Below the pieces are notes generated by a model that was not told the origin of the DNA, made no database searches, and saw only the letters and a program-made list of their open reading frames with translations. A DNA stretch of 6,149 nucleotides, taken from contig CAUBQU010000086.1 of assembly GCA_958438185.1 (NCBI GenBank), positions 1 to 6,149 of the forward strand. Reading direction: 5' to 3'. A program made the position numbers and the translations under genes. Positions 1 through 6,149 of this stretch are shown piece by piece (position 1 is the stretch's first letter; every line of letters starts with the position of its first letter). The stretch comes from an uncultured Oscillospiraceae bacterium. GTDB taxonomy: Bacteria; Bacillota; Clostridia; Oscillospirales; Oscillospiraceae.

Positions 1-990
1 GGTCGGATTCTTGCCGGACCAGAACTGGGCCGCCATATCGCTCTTGCGGATGATCTCGCCCTCAAACGCGGCGGCGAAGGCCACCGGGATGGGCAGCTCC
101 TTGGACTTGATCTTGATATTACGCAGCTCCAGGGACTTCTTGACCGTCTCAGCATGGTCGCAGACGGACTCCAACGCGCCGGGGACCTGGTTCTCCGCCA
201 GATCAATATCCACGACGACCGGGAAGCCCAGTGCAATGGCCCCCGCGCCCGCAGAGACGACGACAGCGTCGATGGCGCCGAACGTATTGACAAACGCCGG
301 GACGCGTTCCTTCGTATAGGCAAGCAGACCGGCCAGATCACCGGGCTGGACATTGCCGAAGATCAGCGCCGCCCGGATGGCGACGGTGACGACATGGATG
401 ACTGCCGTGACATCATGCCCCAGGGGCACGACACGCAGCTCCAGGCCCATCTTGACGCCGCCCGCGGCGCACTGGTCGATGACCTCGCCGATGAGGAATG
501 TCAAAATGCCCTTGGACTGGTAGTCCTTGACGACGGAGACGACATCCGCCGGATCATCCGCCTTGCCCAGGACGACGGCCACGCCGGGGATATCCCCCGT
601 GACCAGTGGCACGCCCAGGGAGCGGATGATCGGGTCCGGGACAAAGCCGATGCCCGCTTCGTTTTCATAGGGGGCAGCGCCGTCCACATACTTCAGGCCC
701 TCCAGAATTTCCGCGCCGACGGCGGTGGCAAGGCCGGCATTTAGGGCCTGCCCCAAGTCCTCCTGGTTCGTGATCAGGCTCTTCAGGACGCCTACGCACG
801 CGGGCAGGTCGCCCAGGGTCTTGACCTTTACACCGGTGGCTGCGTAGATCGTGGGGAAAAAGTACGCCGTATCCGGGAAGGCGATCTCTTTTTCCGCGCC
901 GTACTTGGCGATCGCGTCGTTGACCGCGCCTTCGGTCAGCCCGGCGACGGCGTTGGAGCCGCCATAGATAAGATCGGTTAATGCACTCAT
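1..990 (-). CDS. acsB: Acetyl-CoA synthase (CODH/ACS complex), N-terminal 330 residues, partial
   Basis: Cytoplasmic enzyme that condenses a corrinoid-bound methyl group, CO and coenzyme A into acetyl-CoA at the nickel-containing A cluster. The visible part matches, from memory, the N-terminal domain and start of the middle domain of Moorella AcsB. Landmarks are FPDTAYFFP (residues 38-46), the TLGDLP segment (58-63), and a closing block containing ELPIPVAFAAAFEGE and IIRKSDM (308-329). The frame is open to base 1. About 400 further codons, including the A-cluster cysteines, should lie beyond the left edge, so catalytic competence cannot be judged. The start is the ATG at 988-990, with GAGGAGG five bases upstream. 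An in-frame TGA at 1012-1014 rules out a longer N-terminus. The protein begins roughly 17 residues later than I recall for Moorella AcsB. It is the last visible gene of the cluster, separated from acsCE by 160 bases. Confidence 0.93.
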   Translation of the reverse strand, partial: MSALTDLIYGGSNAVAGLTEGAVNDAIAKYGAEKEIAFPDTAYFFPTIYAATGVKVKTLGDLPACVGVLKSLITNQEDLGQALNAGLATAVGAEILEGLKYVDGAAPYENEAGIGFVPDPIIRSLGVPLVTGDIPGVAVVLGKADDPADVVSVVKDYQSKGILTFLIGEVIDQCAAGGVKMGLELRVVPLGHDVTAVIHVVTVAIRAALIFGNVQPGDLAGLLAYTKERVPAFVNTFGAIDAVVVSAGAGAIALGFPVVVDIDLAENQVPGALESVCDHAETVKKSLELRNIKIKSKELPIPVAFAAAFEGEIIRKSDMAAQFWSGKNPT

Positions 991-995
991 AATAT

Positions 996-1002
996 CCTCC
1001 TC
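996..1002 (-). promoter_or_regulatory. Ribosome binding site of acsB
   Basis: On the minus strand this reads GAGGAGG, followed by ATATT and then ATG. It is a near-perfect anti-16S match with five-base spacing. It fixes the acsB start at base 990, because the next codons upstream run into a TGA. Confidence 0.85.
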
Positions 1003-1020
1003 AAGTTTTTGTCAAGCGTC

Positions 1021-1048
1021 ACCGGCGCCGCCCACGGCCGCGGCCGGT
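1021..1048 (-). repeat. GC-rich inverted repeat in the acsB leader
   Basis: ACCGGC (1021-1026) and GCCGGT (1043-1048) form perfect six-base arms around a GC-rich interior with further, imperfect pairing. In acsB-direction RNA this could fold about 20 bases upstream of the ribosome binding site. The region is very GC-rich, so a chance inverted repeat is plausible. No function is assigned. Confidence 0.35.
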
Positions 1049-1053
1049 CTATC

Positions 1054-1095
1054 AAAATGCAAACGCATCGAAATTGCACGCAAATTGCAATGCAA
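1054..1095. promoter_or_regulatory. Cluster of small TGCA-type palindromes, operator-like
   Basis: This AT-richer island in a GC-rich region holds three short palindromes. On the plus strand they are ATGC-AAAC-GCAT (1057-1068), TTGC-AC-GCAA (1074-1083) and TTGCA-A-TGCAA (1085-1095). The octamer AAATTGCA occurs at 1071-1078 and again at 1082-1089, an 11-base period close to one helical turn, and a variant AAAATGCA lies at 1054-1061. The position, 64-105 bases upstream of acsB and after the acsCE stop, suits a regulator binding site. I do not recognise the motif as a named operator, and I find no convincing -35/-10 pair beside it. Confidence 0.4.
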
Positions 1096-1104
1096 GTTAA
1101 GAAC

Positions 1105-1144
1105 GCGAAAGGACCATGCCCGGCCCCCGGGCATGGTGTTTCGC
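1105..1144 (-). terminator. Strong stem-loop after acsCE, possible terminator or attenuator
   Basis: A perfect 11-base stem (1113-1123 with 1127-1137) closes on a three-base loop. Below it, a second six-base stem (GCGAAA at 1105-1110 with TTTCGC at 1139-1144) is separated only by a GG/G internal loop. It starts seven bases after the acsCE stop. In the minus-strand RNA the stem is followed by a short TTTCGCG run rather than a long U tract. It may therefore terminate only partly, protect the upstream transcript's 3' end, or mark a processing site. The A-run/T-run flanks are near-symmetric, so it could act in either direction. Confidence 0.55.
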
Positions 1145-1150
1145 TGAAGC

Positions 1151-3412
1151 TTAGAAGTCCAGATAAGAATCGGAATACAGCTCGTTGTTTTTGAAGATGT
1201 CGCAGGATTTGATCGTCTCCATCAGGCGGCGGTCGTTGGGGTTGACGATGGCGGAGGTCAGGCCCTGCATCATCGCCATGGCGACCAATGCAGAATCCAT
1301 CACCGGCCGCACCGCCTTCGGCGCGCCGTTGGAGTTATTGGACAAGCCGCCAGTGGATTTCAGGCCCTCGTCACTGAACATCTTGATGGCCTCCAGGACC
1401 TCCATCTGCTTGTCCTGCATACCCTTGACGACGAGGAACAGCGGGTCAAACCACAGGTCCGTCGCCTCCATGCCCAGCTGCAGGCCGCGCTCGAGCATCG
1501 TATGGCAGTGGGCCATACGCTCGTCATTATCCTTGGCGATGCCATCGGCAGAGCACAGGGCGATGACGATGGCGTCGTTATCCGCCGCCAGGTCGATGTT
1601 GGAGATACGGGAACCGGCGTCAGCGGAGTTGATGATGGGCTTGCCGTTGGACCGGTTGTAGACGCGGATGCCCGCCTCAATGGCCCGCTTGTTGGCCGTA
1701 TCCAGGGCCAGCGGGACGTTGTTGAAGTTCTCCTGCAGCAGCTTGACAGCCCAGGTCATCAGCTGCGGACCGTTGGACTCGGCAGGGCCGATGTTGACAT
1801 CCAGGTACGTCGCGCCCGCCTTGATCTGCTCCGCCGCCCGCTTCAGAATGGGCTCCGGATCCATATTGTCCATCGCCTTGTGGATGACCGGGGAGATGCA
1901 GTGGATGCGCTCGCCGATGGTGACGAATTTCTTCGAGGCCGGGTCATGATGCCCATAGGTCACGCCCATGTCGACGACCTTGATCTCGGGGATGACGATC
2001 TTGTCGAAGTCCACTGGGGCGTCGGCCTTGGCCTCCTGCTTCTCCGTCGCCGCGGCCTTGGCCGCCGCAACGGCTGCCGCCGCCTTCTCATGCTCGCCGT
2101 CCTTCAAATAGCGGACCAGCTCGACCGCCTCCCGGGTACCGACGACGACATTCCAATCTGGCAGCTTATCCTGAATTTCGCCCTTCATGACGGCGACCTT
2201 GCCCGGCAGGACCAGGGTCCGGGAGTTGATCTTATTGGCAACGTCAAATTCGTCCATAAACTTCTTGACAGTGCTGGAAGAGAATTTGCCCGCCGCCCAA
2301 GCCGTTAGGACGGACATGCCGGAGGCGTCCGTGATAAGCAGGTTGACCGGCACCTTCGACCGCTCCAGCTCGCCGGAGACGAGGAAGTAGGTCAGCGCAA
2401 AATCGACCGTCAGCAGGCACGGCGAATCCGCCGTCGCGCCGTTCATCGGGTAGATGCCCGGGGCGACCTTCATGGGCTTCTGCGGGTCGGTATAGATATT
2501 CTGCCGCAGACCGAACAGCGGCAGCGCCTGGGCGTAGGACATCTGCTCCATGACCAGGATGGAGCCGTATTTGACGGTGAACAGCGACGCCAGCGCCGTC
2601 TGCAGATGCGCGTCGCCCCAGGCCAGGCGGGCGATGTTCACGATGGAAGGATAGCCCAGCGTCCGGACGCCGTCCAAAATTGCGCCGCGGCGGGCTTCGA
2701 CGGCGTTGGCAAACGTTTCCTTGACCGTCTTGCCGGTGACATCCAGGAGCAAATTCTTGTTGCCCGCCTTCTCCAGCTTTTCGACGGTGTCGTAAATCTC
2801 CGACAGGCTCTCGCCGCCGACGGCCAAGATGGCCTTGCCGCCAACCGCAGCCTGCATGGCCTCCCAGTTCTGCGCGTTGACGCCATCAATGACGGCCTCG
2901 GGGCACGCTGCGATGACGGCCGCCGCGGCGTCCGGGTCCGTCGTCTCGACGATGACGCCCCGGCCGGTGGCCGCTGCCTTCTGGGCAAAGCGCACCAGCT
3001 TCTCGGTATCGCGCCCGGCGTCGTGCACAAAGACGAATTCGACATATTCCCGCTCGCCGATGCGCTCGTAATCGACTTTTTCCAGCTGGGCCAGCGCCGC
3101 ATCCGCCGCCGCGTCGTCCAGACAGTCGCCCACCTGCACGGCGTAGACATTCCGGTTGACCAGCGTCTTCTCATGCCGGAACAGGACGGTCTCGCCGCCC
3201 AGCTTATGGCCCGCAGCCGTGATGGTCTTCATCGGCGGCGCTGTCGCCTCGGACAGCAGCGCGATGGCCTCTTCCGACATATACGGGCACTTCGTGATGG
3301 GCAGCGCCCCCTGGGCGACCTTCATGCAGAAGGCCATACAGGTCGGCACGCCGCATTCTTTACAGTTTTTCTTCGGAGACAGCTTAAAAATATCCAATCC
3401 CTTGACAGCCAT
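1151..3412 (-). CDS. acsC-acsE: Fused corrinoid iron-sulfur protein large subunit and methyl-THF methyltransferase (AcsC-AcsE)
   Basis: A single 753-residue protein combines two normally separate enzymes of the methyl branch. Residues 1 to about 437 are a full-length AcsC. They comprise a [4Fe-4S] domain with Cys17, Cys20, Cys25 and Cys42, then a TIM-barrel region, then the C-terminal corrinoid-binding region (about 325-437, with SGMSVLTAWAAGKF). Residues about 438-466 form an Ala/Lys/Glu-rich linker. Residues about 490-753 are a complete pterin-binding methyltransferase. Its TIGERI start (498-503), LDVNIGP (537-543), Asp571, Asn595, Asp656 and Asn692 match, by my alignment from memory, Moorella MeTr residues Asp75, Asn96, Asp160 and Asn199. 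The protein would accept the methyl of methyl-THF and load it on its own cobalt with AcsD as partner. The ATG at 3412 has GGAGG eight bases upstream, overlapping the acsD end. The stop is TAA. Domain identities are seen; better coupling through tethering is inferred. Confidence 0.93.
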   Translation of the reverse strand: MAVKGLDIFKLSPKKNCKECGVPTCMAFCMKVAQGALPITKCPYMSEEAIALLSEATAPPMKTITAAGHKLGGETVLFRHEKTLVNRNVYAVQVGDCLDDAAADAALAQLEKVDYERIGEREYVEFVFVHDAGRDTEKLVRFAQKAAATGRGVIVETTDPDAAAAVIAACPEAVIDGVNAQNWEAMQAAVGGKAILAVGGESLSEIYDTVEKLEKAGNKNLLLDVTGKTVKETFANAVEARRGAILDGVRTLGYPSIVNIARLAWGDAHLQTALASLFTVKYGSILVMEQMSYAQALPLFGLRQNIYTDPQKPMKVAPGIYPMNGATADSPCLLTVDFALTYFLVSGELERSKVPVNLLITDASGMSVLTAWAAGKFSSSTVKKFMDEFDVANKINSRTLVLPGKVAVMKGEIQDKLPDWNVVVGTREAVELVRYLKDGEHEKAAAAVAAAKAAATEKQEAKADAPVDFDKIVIPEIKVVDMGVTYGHHDPASKKFVTIGERIHCISPVIHKAMDNMDPEPILKRAAEQIKAGATYLDVNIGPAESNGPQLMTWAVKLLQENFNNVPLALDTANKRAIEAGIRVYNRSNGKPIINSADAGSRISNIDLAADNDAIVIALCSADGIAKDNDERMAHCHTMLERGLQLGMEATDLWFDPLFLVVKGMQDKQMEVLEAIKMFSDEGLKSTGGLSNNSNGAPKAVRPVMDSALVAMAMMQGLTSAIVNPNDRRLMETIKSCDIFKNNELYSDSYLDF
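2015..2101 (-). other. Alanine-rich interdomain linker of the AcsC-AcsE fusion
   Basis: This encodes residues about 438-466 of the fusion protein: a charged start (DGEHEK), an Ala-rich run (AAAAVAAAKAAATEKQ) and then EAKADAP. The low-complexity, charged-plus-alanine composition is typical of flexible or helical linkers between independent domains. It is in frame with both domains and contains no stop or ATG. Confidence 0.75.
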
Positions 3413-3428
3413 AGCTACAACCTCCCCC

Positions 3429-4373
3429 TCAGACCAATGCGTCGATCATCTTGCCGATGGCGGTAATGGATGCCGGATGCCGCAGGATGACAGCGTCCGA
3501 CCCGCAGGCCAGACAGGCTGCCGCCGTGGCGACCTCCATGTCGATGCCGCGGTTTTCCGCGTCGCCCCACTCGGGCATCTCCGCTTCGGGCATGACCGAT
3601 TCCTTCACGCCCCAGGTCTCCGGCGAGATGGGCGTCATGATCGGCATCTGCAGCTGGGCGTCGTTCTGGCCCAGGGCTGCCGCACGGATACGGTCCAGCG
3701 TCGAGGCGACGTATTCAAAGCCGTAGCCCGCCGCCGCGCTGCCCGCCTGCATGACGATGGAGCCGGGGTTGACGCCCAGCTGGGTCATGACGGTATTGAG
3801 CTGCTTTGCCAGGTTGATATCCACCGCCGACTCTGCGCCGACCTTCTGGCCATAGGCCAGGGCCGCCGAAGCGCCGACTGCCTTGTAGTTTTCCTCCCGG
3901 GCGGAGAGGACCAGAATATTCTTGCCTGCCAGGGCCTCAGAGACCTTAGCAAAGATCTCCGCGTCCTTTTCCACATTCTTGCAGCCCAGGATGACCAGCG
4001 GCAGTGCAATGCGATCGGCCACTTCCTTGCACAGGGCGACGCATTCATCGACCGACTTGTTCGCGCCGTTGGGGTCCGCCCCCTCCAGGTGCAGGGCGAT
4101 GAACGAAACATGCTCCATCGTCTGGGCCCGCTCGGCCATATCGGCGACGGTGGCGCAGCCTGCGTAAAACGCCTGCAGGCCCGGCTGCGGATACGCCGCC
4201 AGGCCGAGGTCCGTCACCTCCATACCGATCTTCGGCGCGTTGGCCGTCTCAGCGTCGAAGGTGTAGAACGGAAGCGTGCTGCCGCCGCCGATGGTCACAG
4301 CCTTGTCGCCCGTCCCGATGGTGACTTCGTTGATCTTGGCGTTACTCGTGTGTTTTTTGGGAACGAAAGCCAT
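3429..4373 (-). CDS. acsD: Corrinoid iron-sulfur protein small subunit (CODH/ACS delta subunit)
   Basis: This is the small subunit of the heterodimeric corrinoid protein that carries the methyl group from methyl-THF to acetyl-CoA synthase. It forms a TIM barrel that packs on the corrinoid domain of AcsC and lacks its own iron-sulfur cluster. The 314 residues compare with about 323 in Moorella. Recognisable family blocks are IGGGSTLPFYTFD (28-40), IGMEV (49-53), LEGADPNGANKSVDECV (96-112), VDINLAKQLN (184-193), ETWGVKES (252-259) and LRHP (297-300). The ATG at 4371-4373 is preceded by AGGGGG with seven-base spacing, 22 bases after the acsF stop. Its TGA stop sits inside the GA/G-rich ribosome binding region of acsCE, 16 bases before that gene, suggesting translational coupling and balanced subunit synthesis. 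Gene order is D then C, the reverse of the Moorella order as I recall it. Confidence 0.95.
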   Translation of the reverse strand: MAFVPKKHTSNAKINEVTIGTGDKAVTIGGGSTLPFYTFDAETANAPKIGMEVTDLGLAAYPQPGLQAFYAGCATVADMAERAQTMEHVSFIALHLEGADPNGANKSVDECVALCKEVADRIALPLVILGCKNVEKDAEIFAKVSEALAGKNILVLSAREENYKAVGASAALAYGQKVGAESAVDINLAKQLNTVMTQLGVNPGSIVMQAGSAAAGYGFEYVASTLDRIRAAALGQNDAQLQMPIMTPISPETWGVKESVMPEAEMPEWGDAENRGIDMEVATAAACLACGSDAVILRHPASITAIGKMIDALV

Positions 4374-4395
4374 ATTGTTTCCCCCTATTCTAACT

Positions 4396-5163
4396 CTAAA
4401 TATTTAACGATTTGAAAATTTCCCGCAGCGCCTGCTTGCTCTTGGCGTCCGCCGCGATATGCGCGCTGGGCTGACCGGCGCAGTCGGCGTCATAAACGGC
4501 CTCGTCCTGGGGCACGACGCCTGCCAGCTCCAGCCCATTGGCCTCGATCTCCTCCAGCACGCCGGGGTTCAGCTTCCCCTCCGGCGCCCGGTTGACGATC
4601 AGGCGGACCCGCCCCGGCGTCAGGTGCAGGTCCTGGGCCAGCTGGGCGATGCGGCCCACGGCCTGGATGCCCCGGCGGGAGCAGTCAGAGACCAGCAGCA
4701 GCGTGTCTACATGGGGCAGTGTGCCCCGGGCGATGTACTCCATCCCGGCTTCGTTGTCGATGACAGTATAGCGGTACTGGCCGGTGTATTTTTCCAGCTG
4801 GGCCTGCAGGATGCCGTTGACAAAGCAGTAGCAGCCCTTGCCCTGGGTCCGGCCCATGACGAGCATGTCAAAGTCGTCCTCCTCCGCCAGCGCTTCGCTG
4901 AAGCGGAATTCGGCGTACTCCGCCTTTGTCATGCCGCCGGGGATGACGTCCCCCCGCTTTTCCGCCTGGGCCATGTCCTCGCGGATCTCGCCCAGGGTCG
5001 TCCCCGCTTCGACGCCCAGGACCTCATTGAGGTTGGAGTTGGCGTCTGCGTCCACGACGAGAACGGGCGTCTTGCGCTGGCTGACCAGATAGTCGACCAG
5101 CATCCCGCAGATCGTCGTCTTTCCCACACCGCCTTTTCCGGCGATGGCAATCGTTTGTGTCAT
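4396..5163 (-). CDS. acsF: Nickel-insertion ATPase for acetyl-CoA synthase/CO dehydrogenase (CooC/AcsF family)
   Basis: This is a soluble P-loop ATPase of the MinD/CooC (SIMIBI) class that matures the nickel centres of CO dehydrogenase or acetyl-CoA synthase. The 255-residue protein has a deviant Walker A motif GKGGVGKT (9-16), the DADANSN segment (38-44), and the metal-binding Cys-x-Cys typical of CooC at Cys111-Tyr-Cys113 inside KGCYCFVNG. A conserved IDNEAGMEYIARGT block follows, and then a LLVSDCSRRG segment. The start is set at the ATG at 5161-5163 because AAGGAG lies eight bases upstream and the P-loop then sits at the usual distance. A GTG at 5190 in the same frame would add nine residues but has no ribosome binding site. 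The stop is TAG. Location directly before acsD and near acsB favours a role on acetyl-CoA synthase, hence AcsF. Family members cannot be assigned firmly to CODH or ACS from sequence alone. Confidence 0.9.
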   Translation of the reverse strand: MTQTIAIAGKGGVGKTTICGMLVDYLVSQRKTPVLVVDADANSNLNEVLGVEAGTTLGEIREDMAQAEKRGDVIPGGMTKAEYAEFRFSEALAEEDDFDMLVMGRTQGKGCYCFVNGILQAQLEKYTGQYRYTVIDNEAGMEYIARGTLPHVDTLLLVSDCSRRGIQAVGRIAQLAQDLHLTPGRVRLIVNRAPEGKLNPGVLEEIEANGLELAGVVPQDEAVYDADCAGQPSAHIAADAKSKQALREIFKSLNI

Positions 5164-5171
5164 AGCTTGTG

Positions 5172-5177
5172 CTCCTT
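5172..5177 (-). promoter_or_regulatory. Ribosome binding site of acsF
   Basis: The minus strand reads AAGGAG, then eight bases, then ATG at 5163. It decides in favour of this ATG over the upstream in-frame GTG at 5190. Confidence 0.75.
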
Positions 5178-5179
5178 GC

Positions 5180-5195
5180 GCCGGGCGCACCCGGC
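5180..5195 (-). repeat. Small hairpin in the metF-acsF gap
   Basis: GCCGGG (5180-5185) and CCCGGC (5190-5195) form a perfect six-base GC stem with a four-base loop. It ends two bases before the acsF ribosome binding site in the transcript. No T-run follows, so it is not a terminator. It could stabilise or punctuate the message, or be chance. Confidence 0.45.
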
Positions 5196-5200
5196 AGTTT

Positions 5201-6126
5201 TTACAGATCGACGATGCCGGACTCCTTGACCAGCCGCGTCACATCCTCGTATTTATTCAGCGCATACAGATGGATGCCGTCAATGCCGCAGGCTCTGTAT
5301 TCGTCGATGAGGCCGATGGTGTATTCCATACCCGCCTCCTTGAAGTCCGCCTTCTTCTGGGCGATGGACTCCTCCGATTCATTCGGGGCAAAGGGGTTCG
5401 GGAAGATCCAGTGCTTGGAGATGATCTCCGCAAGCTTTCTGGGCATGACGCAACCGTTGCGGCTCAGCGCCATGTTGATCGTCGCGCCCATATCCAGGAC
5501 CGGCATGATGCCCACATCCACCGGCAGCCAGACGCCCGCGTTGCGGATGGCCTCGAGCCAGTAGCGGAACTGGTCCATATCCCAGCACAGCTGGGTCATG
5601 ATATAATCCGCGCCCTCGTCCTGCTTCTGCTTCAGGAAGGAGATATCCGCCTCCAGGCTCCGACAGGCGATGTGCCCCTCCGGGGAGCCCGCCACGGCGA
5701 TACAGAATTTGTCGCCAAACTCCTGGCGGACAAATTTGACCAGCTCCGTCGCGTAATGCAGGTCGCCGCCGGTGCCCGTCCAGCCATAGGGCAGGTCGCC
5801 CCGCAGGGCCAGCATATGGTCAATGCCGTGGTCCAGATAATTCTGCAGCTGCTCCTTGATGCCTTCGCGGGTATTGCCGATGCAGGTGAAATGCGTCACG
5901 GGCGTGCATTTGCCGTCGGCCTTAATCTTGGAAAGCACATCCAGATTCCGCCCAACGTTCGTGCCGCCCGCGCCATAAGTGCAAGAGATATAATCCGGGT
6001 GCAGTGCATACAGTGATCCAGCACGCCGTTCTCTCCACAAAGCTTTTCCATGCCCCGGTCCGTCTTCGGCGGGAACACTACAAAAGAAAACCCCGCCCGT
6101 TTTTCCATGATCACATAAACCGTCAT
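5201..6126 (-). CDS. metF: 5,10-methylene-tetrahydrofolate reductase MetF, frameshifted after codon 38
   Basis: MetF reduces 5,10-methylene-THF to 5-methyl-THF, the methyl donor for the AcsE domain encoded downstream. The start codon at 6124-6126 has AGGAGG eight bases upstream. Codons 1-38 give an ordinary MetF N-terminus (FPPKTDRG, then GVLDH). The MetF sequence then continues in another frame from 6013 to 5201 (LYALHPDYISCTYGAGG, then ALRGDLPYGWTG). The span is 926 bases; one added base gives 308 residues, a normal family length, so a single missing base near 6012/6013 explains everything. As it stands, frame 1 ends after 76 codons. In reconstructed numbering Asp111 in LRGD and Gln179 in MTQ match E. 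coli Asp120 and Gln183. Position 16 is Val where E. coli has catalytic Glu28. The remaining 270 codons are clean. The gene is either recently damaged or affected by sequence error near the window edge. Confidence 0.85.
6012..6013 (-). other. Site of the apparent one-base deletion in metF
   Basis: The minus strand reads GAT CAC TGT ATG in the upstream frame and TCA CTG TAT GCA CTG in the downstream frame. Restoring one C after CAC gives Asp-His-Leu-Tyr-Ala-Leu and joins both halves without loss. There is no homopolymer and no recognisable slippery heptamer, so programmed frameshifting is not supported. Confidence 0.7.
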
Positions 6127-6134
6127 GCTACACG

Positions 6135-6140
6135 CCTCCT
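6135..6140 (-). promoter_or_regulatory. Ribosome binding site of metF
   Basis: AGGAGG on the minus strand lies eight bases before the ATG at 6126. It supports this start over the internal ATG at 6106-6108. Only nine A/T-rich bases remain beyond it, so the promoter or preceding gene cannot be seen. Confidence 0.8.
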
Positions 6141-6149
6141 AAATAAAAA

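Follow-up and report, generated by a model that had tools for sequence, protein, structure and literature searches.

A natural AcsC–AcsE fusion gene in Oscillospiraceae, predicted to tether a corrinoid methyl carrier to its methyltransferase

The stretch of DNA analyzed here (the window) comprises 6,149 nucleotides from an uncultured Oscillospiraceae bacterium (assembly GCA_958438185.1, contig CAUBQU010000086.1, positions 1 to 6,149) and carries on its minus strand, at 1151..3412, a gene of 753 codons that we refer to as acsCE. This gene is a natural fusion of acsC, which encodes the large (gamma) subunit of the corrinoid iron–sulfur protein (CFeSP), with acsE, which encodes the corresponding methyltransferase (MeTr); both halves are complete. 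We consider it likely, with a probability of roughly 85%, that this single gene, consisting of AcsC, a 53-residue linker and AcsE, gives rise to a self-loading methyl carrier of the Wood–Ljungdahl pathway. The fusion marks one clade and represents a known enzyme pair in a new arrangement, not a new kind of system.

The acsCE frame opens with an ATG downstream of a Shine–Dalgarno-like GGGAGGT (3418..3426, minus strand, as are all features described below) and contains no internal stop. Its AcsC part (residues 1–440; 2093..3412) comprises an iron–sulfur (FeS) domain, a TIM barrel and a corrinoid domain; residues 1–439 match the CFeSP gamma subunit model NF003195 of NCBIfam with 467 bits (cut-off 306). 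Residues 1–438 align with 449 bits to PDB 9fzy_F, a large subunit of the corrinoid protein. The AcsE part (residues 494–753 plus stop; 1151..1933) matches the CODH_ACS_meth model NF040758 with 465.9 bits (cut-off 370). In agreement, Pfam domains occur in the order FeS, CdhD and Pterin_bind, with PF04060 at residues 13–44. The N-terminal cysteines are located at positions 17, 20, 25, 29 and 42, and those at 17, 20, 25 and 42 (residues 17–42; 3287..3364) fit the [4Fe-4S] cluster pattern of the CFeSP large subunit. The AcsE half aligns to the solved MeTr structures 2yck, 2yci, 1f6y and 2e7f, and alignment with Moorella MeTr located D571, N595, D656 and N692, all invariant in our alignment A1, as the counterparts of D75, N96, D160 and N199 of the pterin/methyl-tetrahydrofolate site in that enzyme. 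Thus, the proposal of the earlier note on this DNA, that one continuous frame (given there without a strand) encodes a full AcsC with four cluster cysteines and a full MeTr domain with its pterin-site residues, is borne out.

The corrinoid domain of the predicted model superimposes on 9fzy_F, 4djd_C and 2h9a_A over 122 columns with a root mean square deviation of 1.4–1.5, and the AcsE half has a TIM barrel like that of solved MeTr. A second MeTr model, NF005719, scores below its cut-off on acsCE (183 versus 259), as it does for AcsE of three relatives with separate ("split") acsC and acsE genes (L122, L085 and L182). The full-length MetH model TIGR02082 reaches 84.9 bits against a cut-off of 1010.85, and the HgcA/HgcAB-like models NF043039 and NF040863 reach 45.1 of 285 and 40.5 of 275, respectively. 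A stop-free run of 753 codons is improbable given the overall base composition (p about 7e-11); however, the 54 linker codons alone could be open by chance (p 0.19–0.36), so that the weight of the fusion call rests on its conservation.

This conservation is extensive. The earlier note had suggested a database search for single-chain proteins covering both domains; with 7998 candidates scored, all 120 homologues among the matches listed are proteins of 750–754 amino acids that cover the whole query, and 55 share 99% identity with it. A scan of GTDB genomes found 525 related stretches, and in all of the best 80 that were analyzed, both halves lie in one stop-to-stop frame (77 complete, 746–768 amino acids). 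The record titles of these 80 point mainly to Oscillospiraceae, but also include Faecousia, Avoscillospira, Limimonas, a Butyricicoccus, some Lachnospiraceae-labelled genomes and Pseudoflavonifractor sp. MSJ-30, apparently an isolate; all seven loci titled Faecousia carry the fused gene. The fused gene is also common in a genus that was sampled by way of a Faecousia locus, where 42 of the 50 matching genomes (of 61) read across the junction, one match stops at residue 491 and seven are fragments; none of these 50 holds two complete separate genes. One of the 42 (G1425) has a TAG somewhere inside the frame.

Broader sampling delimits the fusion. Among 400 genomes from the family of MSJ-30 (match threshold E<=1e-50), 112 match: 47 read through the junction with no stop at that point (38 at full length), one (G372) breaks off within the linker, 46 carry separate genes on one contig and three on different contigs, and 15 were left unclassified. 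Relatives with two genes, mostly adjacent ones, also occur within the sampled family. A frame change earlier in AcsC was seen in one of the 47 (G386). The order sample (247 genomes) yielded four fused loci, three two-gene loci, and three genomes with a distant AcsC only; the fused and two-gene loci were checked by open reading frame (ORF) analysis. At class level (E 1e-40), 22 of 391 genomes match, namely the reference fused genome, 18 two-gene genomes and three with AcsC only, and the two genes occupy two frames in 18 of 18. In the phylum sample (E 1e-30), 132 of 398 genomes match; 28 new loci were opened, and the 19 with both genes all have them in two frames, AcsE being cut by the locus end in two. 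Thus, independent fusions were found in none of the order (247), class (391) and phylum (398) samples, the last of which covers only 28 newly opened loci of a single phylum. Open-frame lengths had pointed to further fusions, some with short linkers and one whose linker would be very long, but the ORF check revealed stops between the genes, so that those lengths appear to run through a stop.

The linker of the window protein spans 53 residues (441–493) and falls into two halves. The first (residues 441–471; 2000..2092) is variable and rich in Ala, Glu and Lys, whereas the second (residues 472–493; 1934..1999) carries the motif P-x-I-x-V-V-D-M-G-V-x-Y. The earlier note had described the linker as Ala-rich, which applies to its first half. 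Measured between alignment ends across 113 fused loci (repeats included), linker length varies from 38 to 61 residues with a mode of 56. Averaged over pairs of 52 non-redundant fused sequences, AcsC shows an identity of 0.71, residues 441–471 one of 0.38, residues 472–493 one of 0.56 and AcsE one of 0.87; within the conserved half, P475 is present in 52/52 (100%), I477 and Y486 each in 51/52 (98%) and V484 in 50/52 (96%). Split AcsE proteins, which with few exceptions begin with M-A/G-K-F, lack the conserved stretch. A structure model of residues 316–753, which is better than the full-length one, contains a helix at 440–458 and a stretch of low predicted local distance difference test score (pLDDT <50) at 457–464, within the variable half, followed by block means of 84, 93 and 86 over residues 466–495 without regular strands. 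We infer from this model that the conserved half may form an ordered seat next to MeTr, preceded by a flexible arm. Two points count against this reading: the identity of the segment is below that of both enzyme halves, and the motif is not universal (M482 occurs in 38/52 sequences, and VVDMGV is replaced in several subclades). The full-length model is weak (predicted TM score 0.44, MeTr end under 50), which makes the placement of the domains tentative. Among structural matches to the model of residues 316–753, the alignment begins at model residue 162 (residue 477 of the window protein) for some MetH rows and at 172–173 for many DHPS rows, which we record as leads only.

We next consider the origin of the fusion, using quick trees (LG+G4) of 107 rows, comprising 52 fused sequences (window included), 53 split and two apart, from which near copies and incomplete rows had been dropped; one fused branch, L084, is long. 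On the tree of AcsC plus AcsE columns without the linker, the fused/split label requires two changes, of which well-supported branches force one, compared with a mean of about 36 for shuffled labels; the AcsE tree requires one change and the AcsC tree two. The tree that keeps all fused rows in one clade surpasses the free quick tree by 29.95 log units (approximately unbiased test, p-AU 0.696). In the nearest split relative, L122, the genes run metF-CooC-acsD-acsC-acsE-acsB; the aligned start of AcsE lies 76 nucleotides past the acsC stop, and this AcsE is 84% identical to that of the window. Because the trees fit a single origin and L122 keeps the adjacent gene order, a single fusion event is the most likely origin, with split, adjacent acsC and acsE as the likely ancestral state. 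The two genes would have been joined with linker codons newly gained. Against a single origin, L122 itself shares an open fork with the fused clade when the tree is left free. Other split loci vary in layout: L154 has 855 nucleotides of repeat-rich, apparently noncoding DNA between acsC and acsE, and L147 and L162 carry acsB and cooC on the strand opposite to acsD-acsC. One genome, G606, holds both a fused-type fragment (294–752, 80% identity) and, on another contig, a split-like AcsC fragment (1–326, 60%), reflecting either two copies or a mixed assembly.

That the joined frame merely reflects an assembly or base-calling error at the acsC–acsE junction is highly improbable. Such an error is conceivable, since the aligned AcsE start of split relatives can lie within 18 nucleotides of the acsC stop, so that one lost stop could join the genes, and the same window contains a frame change in metF. 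However, the fused frame recurs in every one of the 120 matches listed and of the 80 best stretches, and the 52 tree rows share less than 92% identity with one another, yet their linkers are alike in length and carry a motif not found in split loci; a conserved linker would not come from error. The longer stand-alone AcsE entries P0124, P0154, P0168, P0169 and P0241, considered as possible carriers of the linker motif, lack it; they contain long internal duplications and are likely assembly products.

A subtler alternative accepts the fused frame but adds a free MeTr of about 272 amino acids, made either from an internal start at the linker Met or through cleavage. Five of 20 MeTr entries of 265–290 amino acids sit letter for letter within fused ORFs, and four of these five, NCBI-named models of 272–273 amino acids, begin at the linker Met (P0164, P0174, P0200 and P0214, within L003, L005, L048 and L170, respectively). 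The Met is present in 38 of the 52 sequences, and its predicted anti-Shine–Dalgarno pairing is slightly stronger than that of 1464 other internal Mets (−3.0 versus −2.2 kcal/mol, p 0.027), a point that counts against a single product. Yet this median of −3.0 kcal/mol (n=38) falls far short of a ribosome signal of normal strength, as found at acsCE starts (−11.7, n=52) and split acsE starts (−9.5, n=47), the Met is missing in 14/52, and the 272-residue entries are gene predictions. Given this weak pairing, we reject an internal start as the main explanation, and we read the 272–273-residue MeTr-only models as annotation cuts that split or hide the fusion. Cleavage into two chains may still occur; on balance, a free MeTr in addition to the fused protein appears unlikely.

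The surrounding genes fit a role of AcsCE in the Wood–Ljungdahl pathway. All lie on one strand and, in transcription order, comprise metF, a CooC-like ATPase gene, acsD, acsCE and acsB. The CFeSP small subunit is encoded by a separate acsD gene (3429..4373; NF040759, 480.3 bits versus a cut-off of 430), which is present in 76 of the best 80 of the 525 stretches. Upstream lies a P-loop ATPase gene (4396..5190; CbiA/AAA_31 in Pfam) that we presume to be CooC from its position. The metF body (PF02219) occupies 5201..6040; its N-terminal part is in a different frame (window 5201–6130, near 6000–6030), owing either to a changed frame or to an error in the contig sequence. The start of acsB, encoding acetyl-CoA synthase (ACS), occupies 1..990 and is cut by the window end (NF040764, profile positions 3–324 of 705).

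A whole-genome check of eight fused genomes and two split controls (G314 and G193) extends this picture. In all eight, AcsE exceeds the curated cut-off only inside the fusion, whereas both controls have a stand-alone AcsE over the cut-off. AcsV, the corrinoid activator, and acsB each exceed the cut-off in seven of the eight, and carbon monoxide dehydrogenase (CODH) does so in five, with a further genome (G002) holding two contig pieces below it. Some observations run counter to a complete, fusion-dependent pathway. In seven of the eight fused genomes, one or two weaker MeTr-like matches score below the cut-off (85–139 bits, in MetH-sized or about 270-residue frames), so that the fused AcsE can only be presumed to be the sole loader; G001 lacks a CODH match, and G007 lacks an acsB match, its CODH (25.9 bits) and AcsV being below the cut-off. 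The pathway thus does not appear intact in every fused genome. G007 (L070, Pseudoflavonifractor sp. MSJ-30) has acsD-acsCE between glycosidase-like and histidine-kinase-like genes, so that either its fused CFeSP is an orphan or the assembly is incomplete. Three other genomes carry two acsB-type genes over the cut-off: in G002 and G003, one adjoins acsCE and the other lies near CODH on another contig, and in G008, one is near CODH and one elsewhere.

These gaps raise the question of whether AcsCE might instead serve a degenerate or different methyl route, such as acetyl-CoA–methyl interconversion, and not acetogenesis. G007 would fit this, as it retains acsD-acsCE but has neither an acsB match nor a CODH over the cut-off, and PMC11338639 describes pathways lacking formate dehydrogenase in many gut genomes. 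We nevertheless regard such a role as rather unlikely given the counts for acsB, AcsV and CODH above, a MeTr half that is the most conserved part of the protein, and the transcripts of Wood–Ljungdahl pathway genes from a Faecousia species reported in the same study.

If AcsCE acts as a self-loading carrier in acetogenesis, it would partner AcsD, and dimerization of its AcsE halves would create a 2:2 particle. The corrinoid domain would take the methyl group from methyl-tetrahydrofolate at the tethered MeTr and then swing to AcsB to deliver it there. The Ala-rich linker half could lend the tether its flexibility, with the conserved half forming an ordered lead-in seated on MeTr or AcsC. The benefit of tethering may lie in a fixed 1:1 ratio and a high local concentration; activity, stoichiometry and docking of AcsCE are all put forward here as predictions. 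A natural tethered pair would amount to evolution's own test of what limits the rate, encounter or domain motion.

We found no description of an AcsC–AcsE fusion in open-licence papers; the words "fused" and "fusion" do not occur in the main text of PMC11338639, and the passages considered from PMC13331322 and PMC6895022 do not mention such a protein. The fusion probably bears on a published gap. According to a 2024 gut survey (PMC11338639), acsE went undetected in 78% of Oscillospirales CODH/ACS genomes, and its figures, as we read them, assign 282 of 411 Oscillospirales CODH genomes to Faecousia. Assuming a like mix in the CODH/ACS subset, this share means that 78% could hardly be reached without Faecousia. 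Divergence is a poor reason for the non-detection, because NF040758 gives similar scores to both types of AcsE (448–477 bits in the eight fused genomes, 489–497 in the two split ones). Gene-level annotation may name the product AcsC only or cut out a 272-residue MeTr model, and acsE can then look absent in fused organisms. The fusion thus likely explains the missing acsE in PMC11338639. Surveys that require acsE for an acetogen call, as PMC12449052 does, may drop fused genomes. We tentatively suggest, as a possibility with somewhat less than even odds, that AcsCE–AcsD stays assembled permanently as a methyl-loading machine whose linker is purpose-built, combining a flexible arm with a new conserved docking segment without counterpart in split relatives, and that it completes the methyl branch in gut Oscillospiraceae scored as lacking acsE. 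If true, counts of potential acetogens in gut and rumen have fallen short by a large group of bacteria.

In the model acetogens, AcsC and AcsD (forming CFeSP) and AcsE (MeTr) are separate chains from separate genes, and methyl transfer between MeTr and CFeSP involves docking with large domain motion. The PDB entries 4djd, 2h9a, 2ycl, 2yck and 9fzy represent such separate CFeSP and MeTr proteins, from Moorella, Carboxydothermus and Clostridium autoethanogenum. AcsCE shares its domains and active-site residues with these proteins, but combines in one chain, via its 53-residue linker, what are two chains in the model acetogens. Split relatives within the family (such as L122 and L085) have a stop, a ribosome site and a new ATG between acsC and acsE; their AcsE begins directly at M-A/G-K-F and lacks the conserved extension. 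AcsCE is not a MetH, which it resembles in tethering only: the order of the modules is reversed (corrinoid, then folate), there is no homocysteine or activation domain, and its corrinoid domain has the CFeSP type of fold, which is set against that of MetH in PMC13331322.
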